A DNA stretch of 64,000 bases from Phormidium tenue FACHB-886. GTDB taxonomy: Bacteria; Cyanobacteriota; Cyanobacteriia; Elainellales; Elainellaceae. A program made the position numbers and the translations under genes. The notes beneath the pieces were generated by a model. That model was not told the origin of the DNA, searched no databases, and saw nothing but the letters and a program-made list of their open reading frames with translations. This document shows positions 1 to 29,047 of the stretch, piece after piece (within the stretch, counting starts at the first letter, position 1; each line of letters starts with the position of its first letter). The DNA lies in the NCBI RefSeq assembly GCF_014764505.1, contig NZ_JACXWX010000003.1:248001-312000 (forward strand). Reading direction: 5' to 3'.

Positions 1-606
1 CATGGCGTCCAGCCGTCCAATGCTGCCCACGACCATCGGCACTTGAGCTGGAGGCAGAGAAGGGGGTGCAACATCTGGAACGCCATTAGGAATCGAAACA
101 ACAGAGTCTCGTCCCAGTGCATAAAAATCTTCCATCCGCCGAGCGCTGGCTTCGCCCACTGCAACATGAGCATCTGTGCGCAAACAGAGGGCGCGGGTTC
201 GCCAAAGCGTGGCAGCATCAGTCGTGCGGAGCGGCAGCTGATCAACGCGGACAATGCGCACTCCCGGGCAAAAAAGGGCAGCGGTTAGACCCGTGGCATT
301 TGCCCAAGGGGTACAGCAGTTAAAGTGAAGAACCTGAGGACGTAAGCGGCGGAAAGTTTGGACATGAGCCAGGAAAGAACGGAAACCTGACGGAGGTAAA
401 ATCAGGCGATCGACCTGTGGACGGTTTCGGGTAATCGCTTCTACTACATCTGGCACAACTCCTATAACTGTAAGTTGAATCTCCCGAGATACAGTTGCGA
501 TCAGATGCCCCAGGCTAATTTCTGCACCGCCAACGCCTGCTGCATCGGTGTAGACTGCCACATGCAATGGTTGGTTGGGCGCAGCGCGATCGTTCAGGCG
601 GGTCAT
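1..606 (-). CDS. Glycosyltransferase family 4 protein (partial, runs off the left edge)
   Basis: The reading frame opens with ATG at 606 and stays open to base 1, giving 202 N-terminal residues. The start overlaps the stop of the upstream gene (ATGA at 606-603), which suggests translational coupling. Residues 15-36 (HVAVYTDAAGVGGAEISLGH) match the Gly-rich N-terminal acceptor-side loop of GT-B, family 4 glycosyltransferases. The visible end (VVGSIGRLDAM) is the usual start of the second Rossmann domain, so roughly half the enzyme is present. The catalytic EX7E region lies outside the window. It is the last visible gene of the heptose/glycan cluster. Donor and acceptor cannot be told from sequence. 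Confidence 0.85.
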   Translation of the reverse strand, partial: MTRLNDRAAPNQPLHVAVYTDAAGVGGAEISLGHLIATVSREIQLTVIGVVPDVVEAITRNRPQVDRLILPPSGFRSFLAHVQTFRRLRPQVLHFNCCTPWANATGLTAALFCPGVRIVRVDQLPLRTTDAATLWRTRALCLRTDAHVAVGEASARRMEDFYALGRDSVVSIPNGVPDVAPPSLPPAQVPMVVGSIGRLDAM

Positions 607-1862
607 ACGGCGGAATGGGACGCAGAGGTGAGTTTTTGCAAAGCCGTTTGGTAGACCGAGCGATGGGTTTCGCCAATGCTTGACCAGCTAAATTGACGGC
701 TAAACCGATAGGCGGCTACCCCAAGCTGATGCCGTAGATCGCGATTTGCTAAGAGCTGGCTGATTTGAGCGGCGAGCTGCTCCACGTTTCGAGGGGAGAC
801 CAGCCGCAGGAGCCGATCGTTTTCTAAGTCTGGATCAGGCGGCGTGGCGCGAGTGGCGACGATCGGCAGCGCATGTGCCATCATCGCCAACAGCGAGCCA
901 CTTTTCAGCGTCACCCCAGGATTGAATGGCAAAACGCCCAGCTCTACCCCTGCCAAATCCTGAGACACGGCATCAGGCTGCAGATAGCCCGTTAGATGCA
1001 CGGTATCGTTCAGCCCAAGCTCAGCAATTAACTGCTGGAGCTTTTGCCAATATTGGGCTGCCTGCTCCTTCGGCAACGCCAAACTCTCAACGCCACCGAT
1101 AACCAACAGCCGAGCGTTGGGATGGCTAGCTAGCACCTGCCGAAACGCAGGCAGCAGTGTTTCTAATCCTTTCACCGGATGCAGAAACCCAAAAAAGGCG
1201 ATTACCTGTGCCTCAGGTGCCCAGCCGTAGCGCTGTTTAAGCCGCTGTTGGGCCGCCTGACGATCGTCTCGCTCGATTGGCATAACATCAACATTTGCGC
1301 CAATTGGGATGCGATAAACCGGGGTTTTGAGGTGCGGCAATCGCGCTTTAATCACGGTTTCAGCGCTGGCATTGGTGGTGATGATGGCATCGCTTTGGGT
1401 CAGCAAGAAGCCGTCTTCCCGATCCCACCAGCCCTGTCGCTGTCCCCATGTTTTTAGCCCTTCCAGCAGGCGGGGGGGAATGACTGGAGGCTGCCACTCC
1501 CACCAGCCATATTCATGGATGGTGGTGACGATCGGCGCAGACCAACCTGTCAGCCTGAGCCAGAGCGGCAGCAGGAAGATAGATCGATCGAATCTATAAG
1601 TTCCGGCGGCGTGCTGGATGTGCAGAATATCGGCTTGGGTGGCGTGGAGCGCCCGGATCAGGGGGGCTAAGCAAGAAAGTTTCCACTGGTCGATCGCTCC
1701 GTGAACCGTTGGATCGGCAGCGGCTTGGGCTGCCTCATGCGTGGTTAGGACGATCGTTTCCAGTCCATGTTGGGCAAGCTGCTGTCTCAGGCGGGCAGTG
1801 TAGTCAGCAACGCCACAGTGCTGAGGCTGATAGGTTCCGGCGATCAGGGCAATTCGGGTCAT
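603..1862 (-). CDS. Glycosyltransferase family 4 protein
   Basis: About 419 residues, full length for a GT-B family 4 enzyme. The N terminus (RIALIAGTYQPQHCGVADYT) carries the 'CGVADY' loop of GT4 proteins that transfer sugars onto envelope glycans. The C-terminal domain has the 'FFGFLHPVKGLETLLPAF' stretch, and an LPFNPGVTLKSGSLLAMMAHALPIVAT-type region (written here only as family context) stands where the EX7E motif normally lies. The usual first Glu is not obvious there. The start used is the ATG at 1862, one base inside the upstream stop; an in-frame GTG at 1865 is an alternative. It is probably a cytoplasmic or membrane-associated enzyme adding one residue to the glycan of this cluster. 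Sugar specificity is unknown. Confidence 0.9.
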   Translation of the reverse strand: MTRIALIAGTYQPQHCGVADYTARLRQQLAQHGLETIVLTTHEAAQAAADPTVHGAIDQWKLSCLAPLIRALHATQADILHIQHAAGTYRFDRSIFLLPLWLRLTGWSAPIVTTIHEYGWWEWQPPVIPPRLLEGLKTWGQRQGWWDREDGFLLTQSDAIITTNASAETVIKARLPHLKTPVYRIPIGANVDVMPIERDDRQAAQQRLKQRYGWAPEAQVIAFFGFLHPVKGLETLLPAFRQVLASHPNARLLVIGGVESLALPKEQAAQYWQKLQQLIAELGLNDTVHLTGYLQPDAVSQDLAGVELGVLPFNPGVTLKSGSLLAMMAHALPIVATRATPPDPDLENDRLLRLVSPRNVEQLAAQISQLLANRDLRHQLGVAAYRFSRQFSWSSIGETHRSVYQTALQKLTSASHSAV

Positions 1863-3946
1863 CACTTGAGTCCTGCTGCTTGCAATAGCTCTAGTGCCGC
1901 TGCCACTACTGCGTCAGGTGCAATCTCTAAACATTGCAGCTGATGGGGGCAGGTCATGGCATAGCAGGGGCTACAAACCGTGGAACGGTTTAGAAAACGG
2001 TTCCACGTATGGCGAAGATACCACTGAGATTTTTGCTCGGTGCCGGCAAATAAAACAACGGTTGGAGTTTGCATAGCGTCAGCAATATGCATAACAGAGG
2101 TATTGCTGGTCAAGACAAGCTTGGCGCTGCCAATCCAGCTGGCTAATTCCGTTAGATTGGTTTTGCCAATTAAATTAACGGCACGATCGCCCAGAATCTC
2201 CAGCAGGATTTGGGAGCGATCGCGGTCTTTCTCAACGCCTGTAACCACGACTGACCAACCCGTCAAGTCGCTAAGCCGTTGGGCAGCCATGGCAAAGCGA
2301 TCGGCTGGGTAGTTGCGGGATTGACAGCTTGTCCAGGGGTTGAGCAGGAGGTAGGGGTCGGGGTTGGCTAGCGGGGGAGCGGAAAGGGTAAGGTGGCGAT
2401 CAGCAATGGGGATACCGAGGGCTTCGATTAGGCGGAGGTTGCGCTCAGCTTGATGGAAGTGGTCAGGGGCGGGGGGAATGGCGTGGGTGAGGGTGTGGCA
2501 ATCTTGCTCTTTAGATTCGCCTGCCCGCAGCGGGATGCCTGCCAGATTGCAGACCAACCCTGCCGGATGGGGAGACTGGCTGAAGCTAGTGAAGATAATA
2601 GCTGCATCAAACTGCTGATCTTTTAACGTTTTGATCAGCTGCCACTCTCGATCGACATCGAAGGCTAATTTGCCCAAATCTTGCCATAGGACGCGCCACG
2701 GTAGAACGTGATCAACCCACGGCAGCAGCGGCGCCGTGAGTGCCCCCGCTGGGCTTGCCATCAGGGTAATTTTGGTCTGGGGCAGAGCTTGTCGTAGGGC
2801 TTTCAGCGCAGGCGTGGTCATGATCACATCGCCAATGTTGTCTAGCCGCATCACCAGCAGGTGACGAACCGATCGCCAGTCGAGCGGAACCGATGGGACA
2901 GGTGCGATCGCAGCAGGTGATTCTATGATCTGCACATGCTTTTCCGTCAAAAGCTTTTCTGCTGCCTCCAGCACCGTTTCTGGAGAAATATCTTCCAGAC
3001 AGGTTTGCCAGTCATAGGGACACTGCCCCCTATACCAGCAGCGCTGCTGGGTAAAGTTGCTGATGTCTCGCTCTGGACAGGCGGGAAACCCTTGTAGATC
3101 GATGTGAGGCGCAGGATGCCCATATCGTCCTGCCCAAGAGGGCCCGAACAGCGTTACGGTAGGAACATGGAGAGCGGCAGCAATATGGGCTAACCCAGTG
3201 TCACCAGAAACGACAAGATCGGCTTCTGCCAGCAGGGCGGCTAGGGCGCGCAAAGAGCCACGCTGCCAAACTTGGGCGGTTCCACCGATCGCTGCTGCAA
3301 TTTGGGCGGCGGCAGCAGGATCTTCGCCAATCGGGACAATGACGGTGGCTCCATAGCGCTGTTGCAGGGCTTTGCCGAGGTGGATGAAATGGGCAGACGG
3401 CCAGCGCTTGATCGCCATGCCTGCGTCGGTGCAGAGAAAAACCAGCGGACGATACAGCGCGCCAAGCTGCTGACGGGCGATCGCCTTTTCAGATGCGGTT
3501 AAATGAATTTCGGAGACAGTGCTGGAGGTGGCTTCTGGAGTAATCACACCTTCAGCCTGTAGGATATCTAGAAAACGCTGACTGACTCGCCGATCGGGGG
3601 GCGGCGATCGCCATAGATTTGTGACGACTTTAGGTGGAATTTTATATTGCTGGGAGTAACGCTGGATTGCATCAGCGATTCCGTCATAGTTTGTATCTGA
3701 AATAATTAGATCAAACGATTCCTGCAGCAGTTGATCGACCGCTTGCCGCGCTTCTCCTTTAGGGGCGCAAACGACGCGATCAATCAGCGGATCGGCAGTT
3801 AAGAGCTGATCGCCAGGGGCAAACGTTAGAACGGTAAGCCGGGCGGCAGGGTGCGATCGGGCAACGGCATGGATGGCAGGGAGGGCGATCGCAACATCTC
3901 CGATTCCTCCCAGCAATTCAATAAATAAAATGCGCTGTTCCGCCAT
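1862..3946 (-). CDS. Double-domain glycosyltransferase family 9 (heptosyltransferase-like) protein
   Basis: About 694 residues, roughly twice the usual GT9 length. Two complete heptosyltransferase-like units lie head to tail. Each begins with the family's GD motif: 'ELLGGIGDVAIALPAI' near residue 15 and 'MRLDNIGDVIMTTPAL' at about residue 366. Each contains a 'GDTGLAH' or 'SNTSVMH' donor-site segment and ends in a Cys-rich tail (QRCWYRGQCPYDWQTC and CSPCYAMTCPHQLQC). Family GT9 includes WaaC and WaaF, which use ADP-heptose. The chosen start is the ATG at 3946; a TTG at 3961 would overlap the GT2 gene before it. The two halves differ strongly, so this looks like an old fusion of two enzymes acting in succession rather than a recent duplication. 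Acceptor unknown. Confidence 0.92.
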   Translation of the reverse strand: MAEQRILFIELLGGIGDVAIALPAIHAVARSHPAARLTVLTFAPGDQLLTADPLIDRVVCAPKGEARQAVDQLLQESFDLIISDTNYDGIADAIQRYSQQYKIPPKVVTNLWRSPPPDRRVSQRFLDILQAEGVITPEATSSTVSEIHLTASEKAIARQQLGALYRPLVFLCTDAGMAIKRWPSAHFIHLGKALQQRYGATVIVPIGEDPAAAAQIAAAIGGTAQVWQRGSLRALAALLAEADLVVSGDTGLAHIAAALHVPTVTLFGPSWAGRYGHPAPHIDLQGFPACPERDISNFTQQRCWYRGQCPYDWQTCLEDISPETVLEAAEKLLTEKHVQIIESPAAIAPVPSVPLDWRSVRHLLVMRLDNIGDVIMTTPALKALRQALPQTKITLMASPAGALTAPLLPWVDHVLPWRVLWQDLGKLAFDVDREWQLIKTLKDQQFDAAIIFTSFSQSPHPAGLVCNLAGIPLRAGESKEQDCHTLTHAIPPAPDHFHQAERNLRLIEALGIPIADRHLTLSAPPLANPDPYLLLNPWTSCQSRNYPADRFAMAAQRLSDLTGWSVVVTGVEKDRDRSQILLEILGDRAVNLIGKTNLTELASWIGSAKLVLTSNTSVMHIADAMQTPTVVLFAGTEQKSQWYLRHTWNRFLNRSTVCSPCYAMTCPHQLQCLEIAPDAVVAAALELLQAAGLK

Positions 3947-3950
3947 TTGC

Positions 3951-4754
3951 CTAGCTGCCAAGTTTCAACAAATGCGGAGCGTCTTGACTGCGATCGACGA
4001 TCGTAGTGGGCAGCTCTTGGTGATAGGCTCCAGAGGGCAGAATGCCGCAGCCGCCGTATTGCGCCATTACTCGCTGCTGAGCTAGTACATCTTCACCACA
4101 GTGGTTAGGCGGGAGGTCTTGCCAAAATTCAAAGCCGCCAATGCTTCTGAGCTTATTTGTGTCATATAACGTGCAGGCCGCAATCCAGGCAATCCGATAC
4201 TTGCGAACGTTCTCTGGCGTGAGCTGGAGCTGTTGCTGAACGTGGTAAACGTTGGCAGCGTTATGCAGTTTATAGCGTTCCCATTCTGGGGTTCCTGCCC
4301 GAATCACTTCTGGCTGAACTGCGCCTTCCCAAAACTCGATCTGCTGCTGATGAGGACGGATATCTTCTCGAAAGCTCAATCCAATCACTGCCGATCCCAC
4401 AAAGCCACACTTTTCTGCTCTGATTGTATTCATCAAATTCTGGACGATCCAGGGTTCCAGGATCAGATCGTCATCCAGATAAAGCACGTAAGGTGCGGTG
4501 GCTTGATCCAACAAGAACTGCCGCTGTTCTGCAATGCCTAACCGAGGTAAATGCCGGTGTAAAACAACCGAGTGCCCATGTGCCTGCAGAACACGAACAG
4601 CGGCTTTTACTTCTCCAGCCTGCAGAGAATCGCCGTCTTCAGTTTGGTCGGAGATAATAACCCGAAAATCTCGGTAGGTTTGGGCACACAGGCTGGTTAA
4701 GGTCACAGCCAGAGCTGCAGGACGATTGTAGGTTGGAATCAGGATATCTAACAT
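3951..4754 (-). CDS. Glycosyltransferase family 2 protein
   Basis: 267 residues with a GT-A fold. The N terminus 'MLDILIPTYNRPAALAVTL' is the nucleotide-binding start of family 2. 'YVLYLDDDLILEP' near residue 90 supplies the DXD-type metal and nucleotide-sugar motif. There are no membrane segments, so the enzyme is cytosolic and probably works on the inner face of the membrane. It lies between a GT9 and the double GT9 with short spacing on both sides, so it is most likely part of the same operon. It would add a non-heptose sugar to the glycan, which is inferred from context only. Confidence 0.9.
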   Translation of the reverse strand: MLDILIPTYNRPAALAVTLTSLCAQTYRDFRVIISDQTEDGDSLQAGEVKAAVRVLQAHGHSVVLHRHLPRLGIAEQRQFLLDQATAPYVLYLDDDLILEPWIVQNLMNTIRAEKCGFVGSAVIGLSFREDIRPHQQQIEFWEGAVQPEVIRAGTPEWERYKLHNAANVYHVQQQLQLTPENVRKYRIAWIAACTLYDTNKLRSIGGFEFWQDLPPNHCGEDVLAQQRVMAQYGGCGILPSGAYHQELPTTIVDRSQDAPHLLKLGS

Positions 4755-4785: not shown

Positions 4786-5889
4786 TTAGGAGAAGACGGG
4801 ACTTATGGATGATAATTCTGGCTTTAGTGGATTCAACAGCTCGATCGCAGCTTCAACCACCGTCTGTGGTTCAACTAAGCGTAAGCAATGATGATGCTCT
4901 TCGGGACAAATACTCTTATAGCAAAGACGACAAGGAACATCGTGATAAAGAACACGATGCGGAACGCCCCAAGGCGTATGCTGCAAATTGGTGAGGGCGT
5001 ATAGATCGACAATCGGCGTGCCAACGGCTGCGGCGAGGTGAACGGGTCCTGTGTTGTTGGAAATGAGGAGGGGAGCCAGCGAAAGGAGGGCGGTGAGTTC
5101 GGCGAGGTCTAGCCGATCGACCAATGAAAAAGAGGGAGCTGCCATGGTTTGCTGGATCGACTGCACCAACTCTTGTTCAGATTGAGTGCCAGTGAAGACA
5201 ATTTGTAATCCATGAGTTTGGGCTAGTGTGCGAGCGGCGATCGCAAATTGTTCCGGCGGATAGCGACGAGAAGGGGCAGTGGCGCCGGGGTGGATAACCA
5301 GCCAGGGTCGATCGAGCTGGATGCCGATTTGCGCCATTTTCTGCTGAACGCGATCGGTTGCCGACGGGAGAACCTGTAGCTTCAGGCGGTCATCAGCGAT
5401 CGTATAGCCAACGCTTGCTACTAGCTCTAGCTGGCGATGGACTTCATGCCGCATGACTTCAGCGGGTTCTGGATCTTTAATCCAGTGGGTCAGCAGCTGA
5501 TAGGGATTTTCGTGGCAGTGCGCCAGCCGCAGAGGAATGTTTGCCATGTAGCAGAGAAAGGCAGAAGGGAGCGGGTTCTGGCTATACACCGTAAAAATAA
5601 TTGCCGCATCAAACTGCGCCTGTCGCAATCGTTCGATCATGGCAAATTCGGGTTCGCTGGTTTTTCGCAGAGCAGTTGCCTTTAGCCAAGGTGCATCGTA
5701 GACGATCGTCTGATCAATTTCGGCAACCAGCGGAACGATCGCGGCTCCTGCGGCAGAAGTCATCAGCGTAATTTGGCGATCGGGATCGGCAGCTTTGAGG
5801 GCGCGAATAGCGGGTGTAGTCATCACGACATCACCGATCGTGTCGAGACGAATACAGAGAATATTTTTGGCGGTGTCCCAGTTCAGCAT
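4786..5889 (-). CDS. Glycosyltransferase family 9 (heptosyltransferase-like) protein
   Basis: About 367 residues, normal for GT9. The GD motif is intact (ILCIRLDTIGDVVMTTPA). The C-terminal domain has 'WLVIHPGATAPSRRYP' and 'LISNNTGPVHLAAAVGTP', the donor-binding motifs of ADP-heptose transferases. It ends in the Cys/His tail CRLCYKSICPEEHHHC that also occurs in the neighbouring double GT9. The ATG at 5889 is preferred because it places the Rossmann start at the usual distance. A TTG at 5913 overlapping the hldE stop (TTGA) is possible and would imply coupling. It follows hldE directly, which supports ADP-heptose as donor. Confidence 0.93.
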   Translation of the reverse strand: MLNWDTAKNILCIRLDTIGDVVMTTPAIRALKAADPDRQITLMTSAAGAAIVPLVAEIDQTIVYDAPWLKATALRKTSEPEFAMIERLRQAQFDAAIIFTVYSQNPLPSAFLCYMANIPLRLAHCHENPYQLLTHWIKDPEPAEVMRHEVHRQLELVASVGYTIADDRLKLQVLPSATDRVQQKMAQIGIQLDRPWLVIHPGATAPSRRYPPEQFAIAARTLAQTHGLQIVFTGTQSEQELVQSIQQTMAAPSFSLVDRLDLAELTALLSLAPLLISNNTGPVHLAAAVGTPIVDLYALTNLQHTPWGVPHRVLYHDVPCRLCYKSICPEEHHHCLRLVEPQTVVEAAIELLNPLKPELSSISPVFS

Positions 5890-5909
5890 AAAAAAGAATG
5901 CAGCGTGGC

Positions 5910-7376
5910 TCAAAAATGCAACGCTCGAATTTGATGAATTAAACGGGTTGTAGAACGGTTATCCACATAAGGTAGAATTTTGACGATGCCGCCTAATTCC
6001 TCAACTAGTTCGGTTTCCGGCAGGGTTTCTCGGGTGTAGTCGCCGCCTTTGACGTAGATATTCGGGCAAATAATCCGGATTAAATTGTGGGGTGTCAGTT
6101 CGGCAAACGGCACCACGTGATCGACACAGCTAAGGGCTGAAAGCAGCGTCAGACGATCGCTCAGCGGGTTGACAGGTCGCCCTTCGCCTTTGAGCCGCTG
6201 CACGCTGGCATCGGTGTTCACCCCAACAATTAGCACATCGCCCAAGGTTTTAGCTTGGGTGAGGTAGGCAACATGACCGGGATGGAGAATATCAAAACAG
6301 CCGTTGGTGAAGACGATCCGGTAGCCTGCGGTACGGTACTGCTGAATGGACGTGGCTAAGTCGGATTGATCGATAATTAGCTTGTCGCTGCTGTCGCGGA
6401 TTAAAGCCTGCCGCAGTTCTTCCTGGTTGCAGGTTGTCGTTCCGGCTTGCTTGACGACGATCGCCGTGGCGCTGGCAGCTAGCGATGCGGCAACCGTGGC
6501 GGAGGCTCCGGCGGCAAGGGCAAGCGTCAGTGCGCTGATGAACGTGTCGCCTGCACCAGAAGTTTGATTGCTGGGGGCAGGCTGAGCGTAGGTGCGGAAG
6601 GGGGGTTGCTCGGATTCAAAAACGATCGCACCTTCGGTATCAAGCGTGACGGCAACGATCGCGGCTCCAGTTAAATTGAGCAGGGCGGCACCGTGGGGGG
6701 CGATCTGGTCGGCGCGTTCGTGGAGCTGCTTGGGCAAGCCCAAAAGCTGAGTCGTTTCGTCGTAGTTGGGCTTGACTGCGGTAGCGCCCACCGTTTGATA
6801 GCGCTCTAGATGACGAGAATCGATCACGAGGGGACGGGGATGCTGGGCTTGCAGCGCGGCTAGCGTTTGGATCAGGCGGGGAGTGAGAATGCCATAGTCA
6901 TAATCCGAGATAATCACGCCATCACACAGGCGATATTGCGCAGTGAGGCGATCGATCAGCTGCTGTTCCAAATCGGGAGCAATGGCGCTGGTGCTGCCCT
7001 GATCAAGCCGCACTAGCACCTGAGAACCTGCCACGACTCGCTGCTTTGCCAGCGTTTCTCGGCTGCTGCTCGCCAACATGGGAGCAGTAGAAACACCCCG
7101 CTGCTCCAGCCCAAAACGCAGCCGATCGCCTTCTGGATCAGCCCCAATCACTGAAAACAGCGAGGGCTTGCCGCCCAAACTGGCCACATTTGCGGCTGTG
7201 TTTGCCGCTCCACCCGGCACATCCTGCCGCTGTGAAATTGCGACGACTGGAGCCGGAGCCTCTCGACACAGCCGGTCGGCACTGCCGCTGAGATAGCTAT
7301 CGAGAATGGCATCGCCAATCACTAGGATATTCAAGGATTTCCAGGCATCGATCCAATACAGGAGATCAGAACTCAT
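5910..7376 (-). CDS. hldE: Bifunctional heptose 7-phosphate kinase / heptose 1-phosphate adenylyltransferase
   Basis: 488 residues, the usual size of fused HldE. Residues 1 to about 325 form a PfkB-type sugar kinase: 'GDAILDSYLSG', 'VPGGAANTAANVASLGG' and the catalytic 'SGAGDTFISAL'. Residues from about 350 form a nucleotidyltransferase with 'FTNGCFDILHPGHVAYL' (the HxGH motif) and 'YVKGGDYTRETLPE'. The first domain phosphorylates D-glycero-D-manno-heptose 7-phosphate at C1. The second adds AMP to heptose 1-phosphate. GmhB-type phosphatase lies just upstream and a GT9 just downstream. Both active sites look intact, so ADP-D-glycero-D-manno-heptose synthesis is likely. Confidence 0.97.
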   Translation of the reverse strand: MSSDLLYWIDAWKSLNILVIGDAILDSYLSGSADRLCREAPAPVVAISQRQDVPGGAANTAANVASLGGKPSLFSVIGADPEGDRLRFGLEQRGVSTAPMLASSSRETLAKQRVVAGSQVLVRLDQGSTSAIAPDLEQQLIDRLTAQYRLCDGVIISDYDYGILTPRLIQTLAALQAQHPRPLVIDSRHLERYQTVGATAVKPNYDETTQLLGLPKQLHERADQIAPHGAALLNLTGAAIVAVTLDTEGAIVFESEQPPFRTYAQPAPSNQTSGAGDTFISALTLALAAGASATVAASLAASATAIVVKQAGTTTCNQEELRQALIRDSSDKLIIDQSDLATSIQQYRTAGYRIVFTNGCFDILHPGHVAYLTQAKTLGDVLIVGVNTDASVQRLKGEGRPVNPLSDRLTLLSALSCVDHVVPFAELTPHNLIRIICPNIYVKGGDYTRETLPETELVEELGGIVKILPYVDNRSTTRLIHQIRALHF

Positions 7377-7430: not shown

Positions 7431-8054
7431 TTAAGAGACGCGCTGGAGGGCGCTAAGGCGTTCTGTTGGATCGGGCGCTGAGGAGGGGATTGGAGAGTCG
7501 ATCGCCATAATCACCCGTGCGGCTTCGTGCAGATCGCTCACCAAGTGGTGAGGCAATCGCTCGGCAGAGAGCTGCCATTCTGTTTCGTTGCCATTATCTA
7601 GAAGAATGGTGCGGCAACCTGCCGATCGCCCTGCGGCAACATCATGCAAAATATCGCCAATAAACCAGGATTGGCTGAGATCGATCGAATGCTCACGAGC
7701 AGCCTGCTGTAGCAAACCGGGCTGTGGTTTTCGGCAGCCGCACTGAAACGTATAGGCTGGAATGCTGCCCTCTGGATGATGCGGACAGTAATAAAACCCG
7801 GAGAGCATTACCCCAACTTTGCTGAGCCTGTCTTGCAGCCCTTGGACGACTGCCGAAAGCGCAGTTTCAGCAAAGTAGCCCCGCGCAATGCCCGATTGAT
7901 TGGAGATGACAATGAGTTGATATCCTGCTTTGTATAGTAACTGCAACCCAGTGAGTGCGCCCGGCGTAAACTGCAGGCGAGCGGGATCGACATTATAAGG
8001 GATATCCTCAACGAGGGTTCCATCTTTGTCCAGGAAGACAGCGCGATGATTCAT
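7431..8054 (-). CDS. gmhB: D-glycero-D-manno-heptose 1,7-bisphosphate 7-phosphatase (HAD family)
   Basis: 207 residues. The HAD nucleophile motif is 'FLDKDGTLVED'; motif II is 'VISNQSGIARGYF'; motif III and the second acidic pair lie in 'CGCRKPQPG' and 'WFIGDILHDVAAG'. The zinc-binding loop (CPHHPEG ... CGC) is typical of GmhB and of the related HisB N-terminal phosphatase. It would remove the C7 phosphate between the two HldE reactions. Spacing to hldE is about 50 bases and to the SDR gene about 27 bases, both on the same strand. HisB-type histidinol-phosphatase is the alternative, but the neighbours favour the heptose pathway. Confidence 0.93.
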   Translation of the reverse strand: MNHRAVFLDKDGTLVEDIPYNVDPARLQFTPGALTGLQLLYKAGYQLIVISNQSGIARGYFAETALSAVVQGLQDRLSKVGVMLSGFYYCPHHPEGSIPAYTFQCGCRKPQPGLLQQAAREHSIDLSQSWFIGDILHDVAAGRSAGCRTILLDNGNETEWQLSAERLPHHLVSDLHEAARVIMAIDSPIPSSAPDPTERLSALQRVS

Positions 8055-8081: not shown

Positions 8082-8807
8082 TTAAGGCCAGGAGCTTTCG
8101 CGCATTGGGAGAACCATCACTTCCGGAATCACCGTTTCACCAGGCTGCATCAACACATAGCGAATCGTGTCCGCCACGTTGCGCGGATCTTGCAAAACAC
8201 CGGGATCGATGTCGGGAAAGCGATCGAGGAGAAATGGGGTTCTCATACCACCTGCCACAATCGCCGTGACTTTTACCCCCGCCGGTCGTGCTTCTACATG
8301 CAGGGCATGATTAAAGCCCATCAGCCCCCACTTGCTGGCATGGTAGACCGAGGCATTTGCCCAAGCGCGTTTGGCAGCGGTGGATGTGACATTGACAATA
8401 TGTCCACTGCCCTGCTGTTTCATGATCGGCAACACCAGCTTGGACAGCACAAACGGCGCTCGCAGATTCACCTGCATCACCCGATCCCAATCTTCGATCG
8501 AGAGTTCTTCGATCGACAAAGTCACATCTGTGCCAGCGTTGTTGATCAATCCATCAATGTGTCCATACTGTTCCACAATCTTTTGAATCGTGGTTTCAAC
8601 CTGCTGATCGTTGGTAATATCCAGCGGCATAGCGATCGCTTCCATTCCCCGCTCGCGGATGTCGGCTGCTACCTGTTCCGCCAAGTCAACCCGAATATCG
8701 GCAGCAATGACGATCGCGCCGGCTTCTGCAAGCGTTTGGCAAATGGCAGCTCCTAAACCGCGTCCGCCGCCTGTCACCAACATGACTTTGTTGCTCAAGG
8801 TATCCAT
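8082..8807 (-). CDS. Short-chain dehydrogenase/reductase family protein
   Basis: 241 residues, the classical SDR length. It shows the NAD(P) glycine motif 'VTGGGRGLGAAI', 'DITNDQQ', the structural 'NNAGTD' and the catalytic Ser with YxxxK (VTSTAAK ... VYHASKWG). The substrate is not identifiable. It sits between the GT4-GmhA fusion and gmhB in the heptose operon. It is a classical SDR of about 240 residues, not the extended type to which HldD (ADP-heptose 6-epimerase) belongs. It should therefore not be read as the missing epimerase, although an unusual modification of a heptose intermediate is conceivable. Confidence 0.92.
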   Translation of the reverse strand: MDTLSNKVMLVTGGGRGLGAAICQTLAEAGAIVIAADIRVDLAEQVAADIRERGMEAIAMPLDITNDQQVETTIQKIVEQYGHIDGLINNAGTDVTLSIEELSIEDWDRVMQVNLRAPFVLSKLVLPIMKQQGSGHIVNVTSTAAKRAWANASVYHASKWGLMGFNHALHVEARPAGVKVTAIVAGGMRTPFLLDRFPDIDPGVLQDPRNVADTIRYVLMQPGETVIPEVMVLPMRESSWP

Positions 8808-8883: not shown

Positions 8884-10821
8884 TCAGGCAGGGGTGGGCG
8901 TATAAGGTACGACAGCCCCCGGTCGCGGCTCCGTCCGGTTTGGCTGAAGCGCTCCCAGCTCCCAGGTTCCCAGGGATTCTGTCCGAGCGGAGGTTGCCAA
9001 TAGCTGCTCCTCGATCAATTCACAAAGCAAATGAATAATCAGCAGCTGCACTTCTTGAATCCGCTGTGTCTCCAAAGCAGGAATCACAATGGGAATGGTT
9101 GCTTTCGCCCGCAGATCGCCGCCATCTTTGCCCAAAAGCGCGATCGAGGTGAGATTGAGCCGATGGGCAGCATCAAAGGCCGCAATCAGATTGGCAGATC
9201 GTCCGCTCGTGCTGATGCCCAGCAGCAGATCGTGGGGCTGGGCAAAGGTTTCGACCTGCCGCGCAAAGACATCATCGTAGCCAACATCGTTTGCCCAAGC
9301 GGTCAGAAAAGCGGTATCGGCAGTTAATGCCATCGCAGGCAAGCCAGCCCGATGCGGACAGCAAAACCGCCCGACCAGCTCTGCTGCCAGATGTTGAGCA
9401 TCTGCTGCGCTGCCGCCATTGCCGCAGATCAGCAGTTTGCCCCCCCGCAGGAAGCAATCGCTGATCGCCTGTGCCGCCGTTTGGATCGCCGGACGCAGCA
9501 GCCGTTGCGATTGCTGTACGGCTCTGATGATCGACTCAAAGCCGCGATCGAGAACGGCAAACTGGCTGGCGGCTGTATCGGCAACAGGTTCCAATCCTCT
9601 CAAAACTTCTTCGTATAGCGCTGCCACCGAACTGGTCACTTTTTGCCAGGTAAAGTGATCCTGAGCGCGACGAATTGCCTGTTGCCCAAACAGACTCACC
9701 AAATGGCGGTGGTTGAACAGATGGAGTAGGCGATCGGCAAGCATTTCCGGCTGATTGGGCGGAATCAGATAGCCCGTTTCCCCTTCTTTGACGGTGAACT
9801 TGACACCGCCAACATTCGCCCCAATGACCGGAGTGCCGCACGCCATTGCCTCGATCGGCGTAATCCCAAACGGTTCATACCAAGGCGTCGTTACAAACAC
9901 ATCAGCAGCACTGTAGTAATACTTCAGCACCTCGCGCCCTTTGCGTCCCACGAAGGTAACCTGGGATGCCACACCTAGCTCTTGGGCGATCGCGTTAAGC
10001 CGACCGATCTCAGGCGTCAGGTCTGGATCAGGCGTTTCGGTTTCGCCGCCGACGATCAGCAGCCGAGCGGGAAGCGCCTGCTGCTTTTGCCAATGGGCAA
10101 AGCCGCGAATCACCGTATCCACTCCTTTACGCGGCACCATGCGACCGAGCTGTAAGATTAGCCATTCGTCTGGGGGAAGCCCTAACGTCAGGCGGGCGCG
10201 CACTTTGTTAATCGCCCAAAATTCGGTTGGGTCAAAGCCACAGGGAATGATGCGAATCCGTTTGGGATCGGCATTATAGAGGCAGAGTAAATCTTCTCGA
10301 TCTTGCGGACATTCGGCAATGATTGAATCGGCTTCTCGCACAAGCCGCTCCTCAATCTCAAACCGCTCGTCGGGGAACTGGTCCGCATCGCCTTGATACT
10401 GTCGTCGCACTCGTCCCAGTGCATGAAACGTGATGACAAAAGGAATGCCAGTCACTCGTTTGATTTCTGCTGCCACCAACCCCGACATCCAAAAATTGGC
10501 GTGGATGAGATCATAAGGCTGCGCCTGACACCAGCTCAGCACAAATGCAGTGAACTCCTGCATGTAAGGCAACAAGCATTCTTTGGGAATGCAAGTGGGC
10601 GCTCCAGCAGGAACGTGAATGACTCGCACCCCTTGCTGCCAATCGACCACTTCCGGCAGATGCGGCTGATCGCGTCGGGTAAACACATCTACGTCATAGC
10701 CGATCGCCGCCAAATGTTTGGCTAATTGCCCGACATAAACATTCTGCCCACCGCTGTCTACCCCACCAAAAATCCCTAAAGGCGTGGCATGTTCACTAAT
10801 TAAAGCAATTCGTTTTGTCAT
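8884..10821 (-). CDS. Fused glycosyltransferase family 4 and phosphoheptose isomerase (GmhA-type SIS) protein
   Basis: 645 residues. Residues 1 to about 415 are a GT-B glycosyltransferase with 'GGVDSGGQNVYVGQLA', 'LQLGRMVPRKGVDTVI' and the EX7E-type 'EPFGITPIEAMACGTPV'. The N terminus resembles sucrose-phosphate-synthase-like and MshA-like GT4s. Residues about 430-620 are a SIS domain with the GmhA signatures 'GNGGSAADAQHLAAELVG' (467-484) and 'GISTSGRSANL'. Glu481 and His597 align with the GmhA catalytic Glu and His. The isomerase half would convert sedoheptulose 7-phosphate to D-glycero-D-manno-heptose 7-phosphate, the first step of the pathway. The join is continuous in frame with a short linker. 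No separate gmhA is seen nearby. Confidence 0.95.
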   Translation of the reverse strand: MTKRIALISEHATPLGIFGGVDSGGQNVYVGQLAKHLAAIGYDVDVFTRRDQPHLPEVVDWQQGVRVIHVPAGAPTCIPKECLLPYMQEFTAFVLSWCQAQPYDLIHANFWMSGLVAAEIKRVTGIPFVITFHALGRVRRQYQGDADQFPDERFEIEERLVREADSIIAECPQDREDLLCLYNADPKRIRIIPCGFDPTEFWAINKVRARLTLGLPPDEWLILQLGRMVPRKGVDTVIRGFAHWQKQQALPARLLIVGGETETPDPDLTPEIGRLNAIAQELGVASQVTFVGRKGREVLKYYYSAADVFVTTPWYEPFGITPIEAMACGTPVIGANVGGVKFTVKEGETGYLIPPNQPEMLADRLLHLFNHRHLVSLFGQQAIRRAQDHFTWQKVTSSVAALYEEVLRGLEPVADTAASQFAVLDRGFESIIRAVQQSQRLLRPAIQTAAQAISDCFLRGGKLLICGNGGSAADAQHLAAELVGRFCCPHRAGLPAMALTADTAFLTAWANDVGYDDVFARQVETFAQPHDLLLGISTSGRSANLIAAFDAAHRLNLTSIALLGKDGGDLRAKATIPIVIPALETQRIQEVQLLIIHLLCELIEEQLLATSARTESLGTWELGALQPNRTEPRPGAVVPYTPTPA

Positions 10822-10845: not shown

Positions 10846-11850
10846 TTAGGAAAACCGTGAAGCGGGACTCGCAGCATGAACCACTCCTATAGTAGGGAGG
10901 GCTTTAGTGCGGCTGATCGCCTGTTCAAAAGCAGCCGTCCAGTCTTGGGTAAACCGCTGGATATTGAAGCGCATCTGCGCCTGCTCTCTGGCGGCTTTAC
11001 CGAGGCGATCGGCTCGTTCAGGATTGTCAATTAACTCCTGCATCCGTTCAATCAAAGTTTCAATATTGGTATCGATGTATCCAGAAATGCCATTCTCTAT
11101 AACGGTGGCAAGTTCGGTGGTCGCCAGTCCGACGATCGGCATCCCTAGCATCATTGCTTCGCAGACGGCTAAACCCAAGCTGGTGTAGCGCACCGGATGA
11201 AAGAAAAACCGATAGCGAGACTGAAAATCGGGCAGTTGAGCATGCGGGATTTCTCCCAGTCCGCCGAGCGATTCTGCATCCATGCCGACTAGATCGAGGG
11301 GAATCGATCGGCGCACCTGCTGAAACACATCGGCTCCCAGTCGTCTGCCGCGTGTCCGCAGTCCGTTGGCAACGACTAAACCTTTGGGCAATGTGCCGCT
11401 ATAGCGTGAGGTTTCAGGGACGGTAACGCCATGTTCGATCACACAAGTCGGGGTACTGCCGCAGTCCCACATCAGCCGATTGAAATGGGTGACATGCACC
11501 AGCAAAACCTCTGGATCGTTAACCACATGCGCGGTATCAGTGGGGTGTTCGCGGGGTGGATCGTGCTCCAGATAAAGCCGGGGCAGCTGCCGCTGTGCTT
11601 CTGACAAAATCTCAAACTGATCTTGCAAATAGTTGCGCCGCGACTGGAACAAAATACAATCAAAATCCTGATATTGCACCGCTTCAGCAGGAATATCATG
11701 CACATTGTCTCCCCAGGCAAATCCACCCAGCCGTCCGCCATAGCCTTCTGGCTTGCCCGGTTTGGTCGGCAGATAAAACTCATGTGGGGATTGAGTTAGA
11801 TAGTAAAGATAGCTGCCGTGAATATGCCAGGTGAGAATTTTCAATCGCAT
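10846..11850 (-). CDS. Glycosyltransferase family 4-like protein
   Basis: 334 residues. The C-terminal half shows 'FFHPVRYTSLGLAVCEAMMLG', which corresponds to the EX7E-bearing region of GT4 enzymes although the first acidic residue is replaced by Tyr/Thr surroundings. 'NPERADRLGKAAREQA' then follows, the typical terminal helices. The N terminus 'LKILTWHIHGSYLYYLTQ' is an unusual start found in some polysaccharide GTs. There are no membrane segments. It is 24 bases before the GT4-GmhA gene and five bases after the half-GT9 gene, so co-transcription is likely. Donor and acceptor unknown. Confidence 0.88.
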   Translation of the reverse strand: MRLKILTWHIHGSYLYYLTQSPHEFYLPTKPGKPEGYGGRLGGFAWGDNVHDIPAEAVQYQDFDCILFQSRRNYLQDQFEILSEAQRQLPRLYLEHDPPREHPTDTAHVVNDPEVLLVHVTHFNRLMWDCGSTPTCVIEHGVTVPETSRYSGTLPKGLVVANGLRTRGRRLGADVFQQVRRSIPLDLVGMDAESLGGLGEIPHAQLPDFQSRYRFFFHPVRYTSLGLAVCEAMMLGMPIVGLATTELATVIENGISGYIDTNIETLIERMQELIDNPERADRLGKAAREQAQMRFNIQRFTQDWTAAFEQAISRTKALPTIGVVHAASPASRFS

Positions 11851-11855
11851 AGATT

Positions 11856-12341
11856 TTAAAAGGGAGACACTAGGGAAGGATGATCTTTAACAACAAAACC
11901 GATCACCTGAAGCAGATGCAGATGGTATTCCACTGGAGAAACCGGATCGAGCGGCGGCTTAACCTCAGTAGATAATGTTTTACCACCAAATTCCAATGAC
12001 TGACCAACTCGTATAGGAATACCAGCAAGATAGCAAAGATACGCCAGGGAGTAGGGAGATTGACCGGGCGCTGTAAAAATAACGGCGGCATCAAAAGCTC
12101 GATCGCCAATCGTTTCAATTACCTGCATCGGGCTAGCGATCGAAATGCTGAAAGAATGAATCTGATCCAAAGATTTCAGCTTATATCCTGTCGTTTCGCA
12201 GGTCAAAAGCAGCAGGCTAGCAGCGGGCAGCGATCGCCGCAAAACTTGCAGGGCAGGATCAAGCTGCTCCGCCGCCATAGTTTGATCGCAGCTACAGGCT
12301 ATCAGAATGCGCTCAGCCGTTTGCCAATCTTTAGGACACAT
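11856..12341 (-). CDS. Half-length GT9-like protein lacking the donor domain
   Basis: 161 residues from the ATG at 12341, which overlaps the end of the upstream GT9 by 11 bases. The middle (AAVIFTAPGQSPYSLAYLCY and LAGIPIRVGQSL) matches the N-terminal acceptor domain of the cluster's GT9 proteins, such as 'AAIIFTSFSQSPHPAGLV' in the double GT9. The family's N-terminal GD motif, which carries the catalytic Asp, is gone: 'ILIACSCDQTMAAEQLDPAL' stands in its place. The whole C-terminal, nucleotide-sugar-binding half is missing. The next gene begins five bases after the stop, so no remnant of the second half survives. It may be a decayed copy or a non-catalytic partner. Confidence 0.75.
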   Translation of the reverse strand: MCPKDWQTAERILIACSCDQTMAAEQLDPALQVLRRSLPAASLLLLTCETTGYKLKSLDQIHSFSISIASPMQVIETIGDRAFDAAVIFTAPGQSPYSLAYLCYLAGIPIRVGQSLEFGGKTLSTEVKPPLDPVSPVEYHLHLLQVIGFVVKDHPSLVSPF

Positions 12342-13368
12342 AAATAGCCTCCCGCTGCAGCAGCGCTTGCGCTTCTTGCAGAACGATCGCCGGAGTAGGA
12401 TAGCTTTCGGCAAGCAGGCTATTCCCGCCCACAGCTCGATGCAGTTGTCGATCGAGGGGTGCCCAACGATGTGGATCGGAGTTTGTAAAAATGACGACGC
12501 TATTCACCCGCAAAGCGGCTGCCAAATGAGACACGCCTGTATCATTACAAATCAATAGCTGCGCCTTTTTTAGCAGTGCAGCCATGCCACCTAAATGCGT
12601 TTGCCCTGCCAGGTCAACGACCGGGAACCGCATTCTTTGAGCAACCGCTTGCGTTAGGCTTGCTTCTGAAGCCGTGCCCGTAAGAACAATCTGATACCCT
12701 TGTGCCGCTATCGCATCTGCAACGGCTGAAAAATGCTGAGAAAGCCAACATTTTTCAGCTGCACTTGCACCAGGATGAATGCAAATATAACGCCCCTGGT
12801 TTAACCCATAAGCGGCAGCGAGTGCTTCCGCTGCTTGCCAGTCTGCTCGTTCCAAGGGGAACTCTAGCTGGTCGCCCTGCAACGGCATTCCCAAAAACTC
12901 CAGCAGCCGCAGGTGCCGCCAAATTTCTGGTTCTTGTTCCGGGTAAGGCAGAAAGCGATCGGCATTTGGGCAAACATGAGCCGCAGGAAAAAAACCAGCG
13001 GTGTCTTTTGCACCCAGGAGCAGCGCAAAACCGTTGATATGAGAGCCACTCCCATGCATTTGCAGCACCAGATCGAATTTTAGCTGCTGTGCCTGAAGCA
13101 GGAACGCAGTAGTTCGAGCGGGTAGAAACGGCATTTCTGAGATGCCGGGAAACCCAGGAAACTCTAAGCATCGATCTAGATAGTGACTAAACCGTTGCAC
13201 AAACTCTTTTGCGCTCGGCAATCCAATTAGCGTCAGGGCTGCCTCTGGGTATGTACTGCGGATTGCACGCAGCGCAGGTACAACACAAAGCAAATCTCCC
13301 AAGCCGGGTAATGCTCGCACGATTGCAATAGTTTGAGGCAAAGTGTTCTTCAAAGGCGCATCAGTCAT
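12331..13368 (-). CDS. Glycosyltransferase family 9 (heptosyltransferase-like) protein
   Basis: About 345 residues. N-terminal motif 'IAIVRALPGLGDLLCVVPA' holds the family's GD pair. The C-terminal domain has 'YICIHPGASAAEKCW' and 'LLICNDTGVSHLAAALRV', the donor-site signatures of ADP-heptose:LPS heptosyltransferases. It is the first gene of the minus-strand run. The ATG at 13368 is preferred over a TTG at 13404, because it places the Rossmann strand about 16 residues in. About 400 non-coding bases lie upstream and should carry the operon promoter, although no clear -35/-10 pair stood out. Confidence 0.92.
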   Translation of the reverse strand: MTDAPLKNTLPQTIAIVRALPGLGDLLCVVPALRAIRSTYPEAALTLIGLPSAKEFVQRFSHYLDRCLEFPGFPGISEMPFLPARTTAFLLQAQQLKFDLVLQMHGSGSHINGFALLLGAKDTAGFFPAAHVCPNADRFLPYPEQEPEIWRHLRLLEFLGMPLQGDQLEFPLERADWQAAEALAAAYGLNQGRYICIHPGASAAEKCWLSQHFSAVADAIAAQGYQIVLTGTASEASLTQAVAQRMRFPVVDLAGQTHLGGMAALLKKAQLLICNDTGVSHLAAALRVNSVVIFTNSDPHRWAPLDRQLHRAVGGNSLLAESYPTPAIVLQEAQALLQREAIYVS

Positions 13369-13404
13369 AAGCAAGCCCACGATAAGAAGTTGACTTACTA
13401 TCAA

Positions 13405-16500: not shown

Positions 16501-16531
16501 TGTTGTGTCTGAAACCCTACCAAAAGGATTC

Positions 16532-17728
16532 ATGGTGGAAGTATCTGACGGATTTACTCAAATTGCTAAGGTTGTAACGAGCAAAGTTGCTGAGCTGCTG
16601 TATGCCCCTGTGGTTGTTACAAACGATCGGGGGGTTGTGATTACGAGCAGCCAACCTGTTCAGGCTGATGTTTGGTTTCATCCCTCTAGCTATGGCAGGG
16701 GGCTGAACAATACGCTACGCATCCCGCTTTGCCATGAAATGGAAATGGGCGAAGTGATTGTGGGGGAATCTCTTACCGAAAAGCCAATCTCCCATCAGCT
16801 AGCGCATGCGCTAGTAGAACTGGTGATCCATCAAACTACTCTTCAGGATAAGCTGCCCAGTCAGCACAAAAAGAATCAGCTGATCGAAGACCTGCTATTG
16901 GGTCGCATTGAAGATGAAGTGATCGTTTTAAGTCGGGCTAAACGATTGGGAATCGACCTAAACCCGCCTAGAGCAGTAATTTTGGTTGATGCAGCGAACT
17001 ATATCCTGTCAGGCGAAGCGAATGCTAACGGAGACTATCTAGAGATCACGGAACGCCAGCGGGCACAGACTGTTATTGACAGCATCGTTAGCTTTTTCCA
17101 TCTGCCCAATGAAACAATCTGCACACACTTGGGGCAAGGCAAAGTCTGTGTTTTGAAGGCAAGCGATAGCAAGAATCTGGATCTGTGGGCAGGCGATGGA
17201 GACATTCCAAAACGACTAGATTCCTCCTGGGCAAATTTGATTGCGCTCAAGCGGGCGGCGATCGCCCTACGCCTGCGGCTGCAGAAAGATACAGGAAGCG
17301 CGATCAGCATCGGCATTGGGCGCTATCATCCTGGGCTTGAGGGCTTAGCCCGCTCTTACGAAGATGCTCGTGCTGCGCTAACGTTGGGCAGTCGGCTGCA
17401 AGCCTGCAACTCAGTCCACTGTTTGGCAGAGCTAGGGATCGCTGCTTTTGTAGGAGTTTCCGATGAGGTCACTAAGATTGAGCTGGCGAAATATCTCTTG
17501 AGTCCTTTGGATCACGAACCTGAGCTATTAGCCACAATCGACGCCTTTTTTGCAGAGAATTGCTGCTCCTCCTCCACTGCCAAACGGCTCTATATTCACC
17601 GAAACACGCTTAGCTATCGTCTTGACAAGATTGCTTCCCTGACTGGCTTAGACCCTCGTAAATTTGATGACGCAGTGCAAATTCGGCTTTCTTTGCTGTT
17701 ACGATCGCTAAATCAAGAACGGTCGTAA
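16532..17728 (+). CDS. CdaR/PucR-type transcriptional regulator
   Basis: 398 residues from ATG 16532, which has AAGGA about four bases upstream. An in-frame GTG at 16505 would add nine residues but directly abuts a hairpin. The N-terminal third matches the sugar-diacid-recognition (CdaR) domain: 'VTNDRGVVITSSQPV' and 'IPLCHEMEMGEVIVGE'. The middle is a GGDEF-like, degenerate PucR segment (ISIGIGRYHPGLEGLARSY). The end is the PucR helix-turn-helix with 'TAKRLYIHRNTLSYRLDKI'. Relatives activate catabolic genes for glycerate, glucarate or purines. The ligand here is unknown. The SDR upstream or the secreted protein 17 bases downstream could be its targets. Confidence 0.93.
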   Translation: MVEVSDGFTQIAKVVTSKVAELLYAPVVVTNDRGVVITSSQPVQADVWFHPSSYGRGLNNTLRIPLCHEMEMGEVIVGESLTEKPISHQLAHALVELVIHQTTLQDKLPSQHKKNQLIEDLLLGRIEDEVIVLSRAKRLGIDLNPPRAVILVDAANYILSGEANANGDYLEITERQRAQTVIDSIVSFFHLPNETICTHLGQGKVCVLKASDSKNLDLWAGDGDIPKRLDSSWANLIALKRAAIALRLRLQKDTGSAISIGIGRYHPGLEGLARSYEDARAALTLGSRLQACNSVHCLAELGIAAFVGVSDEVTKIELAKYLLSPLDHEPELLATIDAFFAENCCSSSTAKRLYIHRNTLSYRLDKIASLTGLDPRKFDDAVQIRLSLLLRSLNQERS

Positions 17729-27557: not shown

Positions 27558-27953
27558 TGAATGGCTGCAACGACGCAGTTTTCCTCTGGCAATATTCACA
27601 TGTTTGCATTCGGACTTTGCACGGATGCAAACATGCGGATCTCTACCCATTCCTTCATCAAGTAGGACTTACTCAATATTGCTGAAAAGCTGTCAATCTC
27701 AAAACAGTAGCTCCAACACTTAGGTGAATTTACCGTTTTCTTAGAATAAAGATTTCATAAAAGTAGAGGGTCTATTAGTAAAACCGTCCAAATTTCTGCA
27801 AATCTGCTGTAAATGTTATAAAAATATGCCAGCTTGACCCATATTGCCTGTTCTCAACCTGCTGGATCTTCTGTAGAAAACTCAAAAGAATCGGGCACCC
27901 TAAAAGCAATTTGGTTCTGCTGTTGCGTTCCTGTATACCCCATTTCATCAACT
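27558..27953. other. Intergenic region with a hairpin
   Basis: About 400 bases. A hairpin at 27599-27635 (11-bp stem CATGTTTGCAT with its complement, 15-base loop) lies 42 bases after the peptidase stop and may end that transcript. The remainder is AT-rich and should carry the promoter of the sugar-nucleotide genes. The frame upstream of the decarboxylase start at 27954 is open but does not look coding. Confidence 0.5.
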
Positions 27954-28922
27954 ATGCGAATTCTAGTGACAGGCGGTGCGGGCTTTATTGGTTCCCACCT
28001 GATCGATCGCTTAATGGCTCAAGGGCATGAAGTGATTTGCCTAGACAACTTTTACACTGGGCACAAGCGGAACATTCTCAAATGGATGAATCATCCTTTC
28101 TTTGAGCTAATCCGGCATGATATCACAGAGCCAATCCGGCTAGAAGTGGATCAAATCTATCACTTGGCTTGTCCAGCATCGCCAGTCCACTACCAATACA
28201 ACCCCGTCAAAACCATTAAAACAAATGTAATGGGAACGCTGAACATGCTGGGTTTAGCGAAGCGGGTCAAGGCGCGGTTTCTTTTAGCGTCTACCTCTGA
28301 AGTCTATGGTGATCCCGAAGTTCACCCGCAAACAGAAGACTATCGGGGCAACGTTAACCCGATCGGTATTCGCAGCTGCTACGACGAAGGCAAACGAGTT
28401 GCAGAGACGCTAGCGTTTGACTACCATCGGCAAAACGATGTGGATATTCGCGTGGTGCGAATTTTCAACACTTATGGTCCACGGATGTTGGAGAACGACG
28501 GACGTGTCGTCAGCAATCTTGTGGTACAGGCGCTCAAAGGACAGCCCTTGACGGTATATGGGGACGGTTCTCAAACGCGTAGTTTCTGCTATGTCTCTGA
28601 TCTGGTTGAAGGACTGATGCGCTTGATGAACGGCGATCATATTGGTCCAGTCAACTTAGGTAACCCCGGTGAATACACTATTCTAGAGCTGGCAAAAACT
28701 GTGCAAGAAATGGTAAATCCTGACACTGAAGTTAGGTTTGAACCCCTGCCGCAGGATGACCCCCGCCGCCGTAAGCCAGATATCACTAAAGCACAAAGCT
28801 GGCTAGGCTGGCAGCCTACCGTACCGCTTCATGAAGGGCTCCGGCTAACGATCGACGATTTTCGCTCGCGCATGACCGATCCAGCTCCTGTTGAAGCTAT
28901 ATCGTCTCCAAGCAAAATCTAG
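27954..28922 (+). CDS. UDP-glucuronate decarboxylase-type NAD-dependent epimerase/dehydratase
   Basis: 322 residues from ATG 27954, the standard place for the Rossmann motif '[19 protein letters not shown]'. Further family motifs are '[11 protein letters not shown]', '[20 protein letters not shown]', the catalytic Tyr and Lys in '[11 protein letters not shown]', and '[10 protein letters not shown]'. These are highly characteristic of UDP-xylose synthase, which oxidises and decarboxylates UDP-glucuronate to UDP-xylose. The next gene makes UDP-glucuronate, so the two form a pathway supplying xylose for extracellular polysaccharide. Confidence 0.95.
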
Positions 28923-29047
28923 GGAAATATAAACTGTCTGGTTCAGACTTGCTTGTTTGAGTTTGAACCTGTAGGTTTGAAAGCTTTGCTTATTTGCTGT
29001 TGAGCTGTCTGAACAAGTTTGTACACATTCACTGCTGAGGATCTAAT

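Follow-up and report, generated by a model that had tools for sequence, protein, structure and literature searches.

The window analysed here, the whole stretch of 64,000 nucleotides from the genome of Phormidium tenue FACHB-886, carries on its reverse strand a gene (8884..10821) whose 645-amino-acid product combines a glycosyltransferase (GT) of family GT4 with a SIS domain of the phosphoheptose isomerase (GmhA) type. Its neighbours on the same strand include four GT9 domains in three genes, a GT2 protein, two more GT4 proteins, HldE, GmhB, and a short-chain dehydrogenase (SDR). Directly upstream lies a GT4 glycosyltransferase (10846..11850; Pfam), a constant partner of the fusion, followed by a 185-amino-acid protein (11856..12413) without a Pfam or NCBIfam match and a GT9 heptosyltransferase (12331..13404). 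On the other side are the SDR (8082..8807, 241 amino acids), a GmhB-like HAD phosphatase (D,D-heptose 1,7-bisphosphate 7-phosphatase; 7431..8054), and HldE (5910..7376), which combines heptose 7-phosphate kinase and heptose 1-phosphate adenylyltransferase. These are followed by a GT9 heptosyltransferase that scores above the TIGR02195 cut-off (4786..5913), the GT2 glycosyltransferase (3951..4754; Pfam), a 699-amino-acid frame with two GT9 heptosyltransferase domains (1862..3961), and the second additional GT4 glycosyltransferase (603..1865). Apart from this last GT4, and except where another basis is given, these neighbours were named from both Pfam and NCBIfam matches.

The order GT9, GT4, fusion, SDR, GmhB, HldE, GT9, GT2, double GT9 is identical in further cyanobacterial loci such as L034, L035, and L039, and the myxobacterium Nannocystis (L046) has the gene order of the cyanobacterial clusters from the first GT9 through the double GT9. 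A Chloroflexota locus (L050) retains GT4, fusion, SDR, GmhB, HldE, and GT9. Exceptions are L102, without an SDR at that place, and L186, where the SDR lies elsewhere; neither HldE nor GmhB was seen in the examined stretches of three fusion clusters (L043, L051, and L103). The two halves of the double GT9 occupy separate frames in L047 and L102, and the 185-amino-acid protein has counterparts of 31-49% identity in cyanobacterial clusters. Farther away on the forward strand, a regulator of the PucR/CdaR type (16505..17728) has relatives near the cluster in other cyanobacteria (e.g., L034-L038 and L043) and near some Chloroflexota clusters (L178, L179, and L184). A nucleotide-sugar epimerase/dehydratase and a UDP-glucose dehydrogenase are encoded on the same forward strand at 27834..30436, 15 kb away.

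Architecture and Distribution of the Fusion

The fused gene is a single uninterrupted frame that begins with ATG. Its GT4 domain (residues 4-407; 9601..10812) is followed by a linker (residues 408-424; 9550..9600), the SIS domain (residues 425-610; 8992..9549), and a C-terminal tail (residues 611-645; 8887..8991), all on the reverse strand. Pfam recognizes Glyco_trans_4_4 (106.3 bits, residues 24-195), Glycos_transf_1 (131.8 bits, residues 213-382), and SIS_2 (88.4 bits, residues 430-564; cut-off 27 bits). The model of the whole protein (mean pLDDT 81.8, pTM 0.61) is of low confidence at residues 411-439, which take in most of the linker, and at 612-645, where pLDDT is below 50. TTG codons at positions 407 and 410 are possible internal starts for the isomerase, and no ATG occurs between codons 390 and 470. 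The preliminary description of this locus had proposed one frame joining a complete GT4 to a complete GmhA-type SIS half, and the length of the frame together with its Pfam and PDB matches bears this out.

A frameshift or assembly error at the junction (about residues 415-430) was an objection raised in advance, and it can be discarded: of the 22 aligned fused proteins, all but L051 (59 residues) have 16-22 residues in the stretch 407-426, and the single frame recurs across genomes. The junction is in one frame in 19 of the 66 loci in named genome records, two of the 19 coming from one metagenome-assembled genome (MAG), and the fusion is found in 17 of the 36 genomes of the order to which the window's genome belongs; 13 of these 17 copies are nearly full length, and the other four are partial or split yet span the junction. 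Only 3 of 386 genomes in a phylum-wide sample of Cyanobacteriota carry it, so within this phylum the fusion is concentrated in that one order.

A database search for the same architecture, proposed as a check on the preliminary description, found it also in 7 of 301 Chloroflexota, 2 of 246 Actinomycetota, and 1 of 188 Myxococcota (Nannocystis). The join and its short linker persist at identities as low as 57% in Cyanobacteriota, Chloroflexota, and Myxococcota. No relative was found among viral contigs. Two of the named copies, L048 and L051, have an interrupted GT half; the latter, from Fischerella muscicola PCC 7414, is a decayed copy with its frame broken near residue 290. Another decayed copy (L101, genome G215) has only fusion residues 480-614 left, beside a partial GT4. 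In G016, a match over both halves resolved into two adjacent genes with a different kind of GT4. We also dropped L049 (JAICUY010000099.1), from a MAG titled Steroidobacteraceae, as evidence for Pseudomonadota, because the sample for its phylum has the same genomes as the Chloroflexota sample; the title itself may be wrong.

The Isomerase Half

Sequence and fold both rank GmhA first for the SIS half. Searched alone against PDB sequences, it has 15 distinct matches at E <= 0.001: 13 phosphoheptose isomerases lead (1.8e-46 to 4.7e-38; best 1x92), two DiaA entries follow (4.7e-36 and 5.5e-36), and no other SIS family appears at that threshold. Its separate model (pLDDT 89.1, pTM 0.85) matches GmhA structures with Z from 28.7 to 24.1, headed by 1x92 (Z 28.7 over 190 residues), DiaA with Z 27.0 and 26.9, and other SIS families with Z of 20.9 or less; the comparison extends the GmhA fold to the first helix. 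Two of the PDB entries in this comparison are inhibitor complexes; GmhA, the first enzyme of bacterial heptose synthesis, has been studied both for its part in making lipopolysaccharide (LPS) and as a target for antibacterials.

The residues Glu481 and His597, which the preliminary description had correctly named and which we take to be the catalytic pair, are present in all 22 aligned fused proteins, as are His477, Ser539, and Gln589, presumably metal or substrate ligands. These active-site residues align with those of LpcA and GmhA; an aligned DiaA, by contrast, carries Ser in place of Glu481, Arg in place of Ser539, and Asn in place of His597. We therefore discarded assignment to DiaA or to another SIS family on sequence rank, residues, and fold rank alike. 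The fusion stays below the naming cut-offs of the NCBIfam GmhA models PRK13936 (202.4 of 276 bits) and TIGR00441 (182.4 of 209.45 bits).

The Glycosyltransferase Half and Its Clade

Among PDB sequences, the GT half is closest to the sucrose-phosphate synthase Tll1590 (6kih, 2.5e-76) and next to MshA (3c48, 1.4e-63), and the GT part of the model superimposes on 6kih with Z 49.1 (residues 2-410) and on MshA (3c4q) with Z 48.2. A GT-B fold, an E-x7-E pair, and a donor-site Arg and Lys, the marks of a retaining GT4, are all present. Glu316 and Glu324 occur in all 22 aligned fused proteins and, together with Arg227 and Lys232, in all 63 rows of a clade that the largest GT tree (69 rows) separates from the sucrose-phosphate synthases with full support (100/100). 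Besides the fused proteins, this clade takes in stand-alone genes from Chloroflexota, Actinomycetota, Myxococcota, and Burkholderiaceae.

Two positions set the clade apart. Phe110 is found in 62 of its 63 rows and Ala134 in all 63, where sucrose-phosphate synthases have Tyr and Ser (29 of 29 in the 55-row set, 6 of 6 in the 69-row set) and MshA has Tyr110 and Thr134. In the MshA structure the acceptor phosphate is reportedly contacted by Lys78, Tyr110, Thr134, and Arg154; the other two contacts of this type are retained in the clade as Lys80 (61 of 63) and Arg153 (63 of 63). Because Phe110 and Ala134 replace phosphate-contact residues, the clade probably uses an acceptor other than that of MshA or sucrose-phosphate synthase, common to the fused and separate forms. 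Identification with either enzyme was rejected on these residues, on the trees, and on scores below the family cut-offs: 129.7 of 576 bits, far short, for the sucrose-phosphate synthase model TIGR02472 and 283.8 of 462.5 bits for the NCBIfam MshA model. The earlier view that the GT takes the last step of the heptose pathway finds no support; the heptosyltransferases of the cluster are GT9 proteins and the fused enzyme is a GT4 close to sucrose-phosphate synthase and MshA.

Separate-Gene Relatives and Origin of the Fusion

Actinobacterial relatives were surveyed in 20 loci, 16 chosen from the Actinomycetota matches and four from plasmid matches. In 10 of these, a separate GmhA gene adjoins the GT gene in the order GT, GmhA, and a stop codon divides them; the two lie 5-7 kb apart in five and share one frame in two, and no GmhA was seen in the remaining three. 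In L136 the annotated GT and GmhA overlap by four bases (11974-13212 and 13209-13838). One of the in-frame loci (L195) is of the cyanobacterial type, at 64% in the GT half. The other (L194, at 40%) nests among separate genes and pairs with the separate-gene L198 (97/95); given this grouping, it looks like a second, independent fusion, a single example with possible internal start codons.

Most Chloroflexota matches to the GT (23 of 30) are GT alone, and we examined the neighbourhoods of 17 of these 23 and of three of the seven fused genes. A second GT4 adjoins the GT in all 17 GT-only clusters. GmhA lies beside GmhB in eight of them and adjoins the GT in none; two have only a more distant SIS protein, and the examined stretches of the other seven contain no SIS protein. 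In three Burkholderiaceae loci, at about 55% identity, the GT is accompanied by GmhB, GT9 genes, and a GT4, and in two of the three by an SDR; the stretches examined contain neither GmhA nor HldE. Such a pattern would follow if the isomerase half served for supply, a function that an LPS pathway can take over; Burkholderiaceae presumably possess the genes for one. A carbamoyltransferase is annotated nearby in two of these loci, and a UDP-glucuronate decarboxylase occurs near the GT in Burkholderiaceae relatives. A possible link of the Burkholderia cluster with the low-oxygen lxa locus was dropped, as the passages of PMC6127331 consulted gave it no support. GT and GmhA kept apart in Chloroflexota and the GT present without GmhA in Burkholderiaceae speak against a strict need for the fusion.

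A GT tree of 55 rows, from which eleven repeat loci were left out, is compatible with a single fusion (90/80). Larger GT trees force two changes (with 15 sucrose-phosphate-synthase rows left out) and then three (the 69-row tree, with the sucrose-phosphate synthases reduced to six as outgroup), and a single event was therefore discarded. The Burkholderiaceae rows group with Nannocystis (98/81), which suggests that the isomerase half was lost there. The trees would fit one fusion with this loss and a second fusion in L194; several fusions would fit as well. In the SIS tree, again without repeat loci, the fused halves are not all grouped; it gives three changes on a poor backbone, one of them due to the truncated gene L101. 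Six SIS rows were left out of one SIS comparison before counting.

Heptose Supply and the Question of LPS

In a SIS_2 search of the window's genome the fusion scores 92.2 bits, and two further proteins score 30.5 (contig C212) and 25.3 bits; HldE is single (1065.8 bits, the next match being 25.3). At the thresholds used, the fusion is the only canonical GmhA of this genome, on which its ADP-heptose supply would therefore depend. The statement is limited to the canonical type because a divergent GmhA-like SIS protein, the 25.3-bit match (L111, G000:C201:24000-38000, at 6686-7294), adjoins a second GmhB-like phosphatase gene. In this protein Asp stands where the fusion has Glu481, and the GNGGS loop is altered; sugar nucleotidyltransferase-like and kinase-like genes, named from their translations, also lie beside it. 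Seven further named cyanobacterial genomes whose fusion is intact (G386-G392), and Nannocystis, gave no second SIS match at E <= 1e-15, and all four genomes with a fusion of the Chloroflexota type (G394, G396, G397, and G398) have further SIS matches.

The best HldD match in the window's genome reaches 121 bits against a cut-off of 274.6; the heptose may accordingly remain D,D-configured. The Kdo transferase domain PF04413, which would mark an inner core of Kdo-type LPS, has no match in this genome and was found in 3 of 14 control genomes. Actinobacteria are not known to have LPS. Given the missing Kdo transferase and the related clusters in actinobacteria, the glycan of the cluster is probably not the inner core of Kdo-type LPS.

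Proposed Role and Alternatives

We propose, with a probability of roughly 0.7, that the fusion is a bifunctional enzyme of a heptose-glycan cluster in which the sole canonical GmhA is tied to a retaining GT4. From its fold, residues, and neighbours, the C-terminal half would convert sedoheptulose 7-phosphate to D-glycero-D-manno-heptose 7-phosphate, which HldE and GmhB would turn into ADP-D-glycero-beta-D-manno-heptose, and the GT9 proteins would transfer heptose from this donor. The N-terminal half would add another sugar to the same glycan. Fusion would most likely fix a one-to-one expression of GT and isomerase. GmhA is a homotetramer, and if the isomerase half assembles in the same way, four GT domains would be gathered on each tetramer, an arrangement that is plausible. 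Since the product of the isomerase is three steps from the donor, direct channelling between the active sites is unneeded, and the benefit likely lies in fixed stoichiometry and co-assembly, not in product hand-over.

The completeness of both halves, the catalytic residues kept in all 22 aligned proteins, and the adjacent HldE, GmhB, and four GT9 domains speak for this proposal. The functional tie between GT and isomerase that the preliminary description suggested is strengthened by the adjoining ADP-heptose pathway, by the neighbouring GT and GmhA genes in half of the actinobacterial loci, and by the apparent second fusion. Against the bifunctional reading stand the unmet NCBIfam GmhA cut-offs, a fused state that is not general, the three clusters without HldE and GmhB in their examined stretches, and the further SIS matches in the Chloroflexota-type fusion genomes.

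Among the alternatives, the one with most to recommend it is that the fusion arose as a mere by-product of closely packed genes, in which overlapping ends lost a stop codon and left two independent enzymes joined to no benefit. The four-base overlap in L136 and the thriving unfused forms of other phyla agree with such an origin, but a join retained with its short linker to 57% identity in three phyla, and made again, it appears, in another lineage, speaks against it, and we consider it unlikely. Still less probable, in our judgment, is that the GT half glycosylates sedoheptulose 7-phosphate or heptose 7-phosphate, the fusion bringing together substrate and acceptor. Sucrose-phosphate synthase uses fructose 6-phosphate as acceptor and MshA too acts on a small sugar phosphate, so that the two nearest structures favour a phosphorylated acceptor, as do the two retained phosphate contacts at Lys80 and Arg153; the alteration of the other two, the complete HldE-GmhB route to ADP-heptose, and the occurrence of the clade without an attached GmhA point the other way. 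That the SIS half is a scaffold or regulator in the manner of DiaA, and not an active isomerase, we regard as scarcely credible: DiaA has the same fold and is among the nearest sequences, but the three residues substituted in the aligned DiaA are invariant in the 22 aligned fused proteins, and an inactive SIS half would leave a genome that encodes HldE and GmhB without a canonical GmhA.

Should the bifunctional reading be true, precursor supply and polymer assembly would be combined in one polypeptide, and the fusion would offer a convenient means of tracking down the heptose glycan in filamentous cyanobacteria, along with related glycans. More tentatively, as a reading to which we give somewhat less than even odds, the fusion may mark a widespread, undescribed, non-LPS heptose glycan of the cell surface in five groups (Cyanobacteriota, Chloroflexota, Actinomycetota, Myxococcota, and Burkholderiaceae), made by a common cluster of the fusion GT4, a second GT4, GT9, GmhB, and SDR, with GmhA and HldE where needed, and the physical coupling of GT and isomerase may be of enough use to have arisen at least twice.

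Comparison with Known Systems

Like LpcA, a GmhA or D-sedoheptulose 7-phosphate isomerase, the SIS half is a whole domain with the N-terminal helix and the full set of five active-site residues, and GmhA entries top its fold comparison. Unlike GmhA, it is joined to a glycosyltransferase and falls under the NCBIfam cut-offs; it also has Gln592 where two aligned GmhA proteins and the aligned DiaA have His. The GT half shares with sucrose-phosphate synthase the fold over residues 2-410 and the residues Glu316, Glu324, Arg227, and Lys232, but is 34-39% identical to it, forms its own clade, and differs at positions 110 and 134. MshA (D-inositol-3-phosphate glycosyltransferase) supplies the best NCBIfam model for the GT half, which nevertheless remains under the cut-off, carries Phe110 and Ala134, and is located among heptose genes. 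With LPS core synthesis the cluster has the HldE, GmhB, and GT9 heptosyltransferase families in common (Pfam and NCBIfam), whereas the window's genome has neither a Kdo transferase match nor an HldD over cut-off, and related clusters are found in actinobacteria. Here GmhA is tied to a GT4 of a new clade, and the pathway concerned extends to phyla that lack LPS. A search of the open full-text literature, which excludes most subscription journals, returned no description of the fusion, the GT4 clade, or the cluster. Both halves are of known kinds; the apparently new elements are their conserved fusion, the GT4 clade, and the common cluster.
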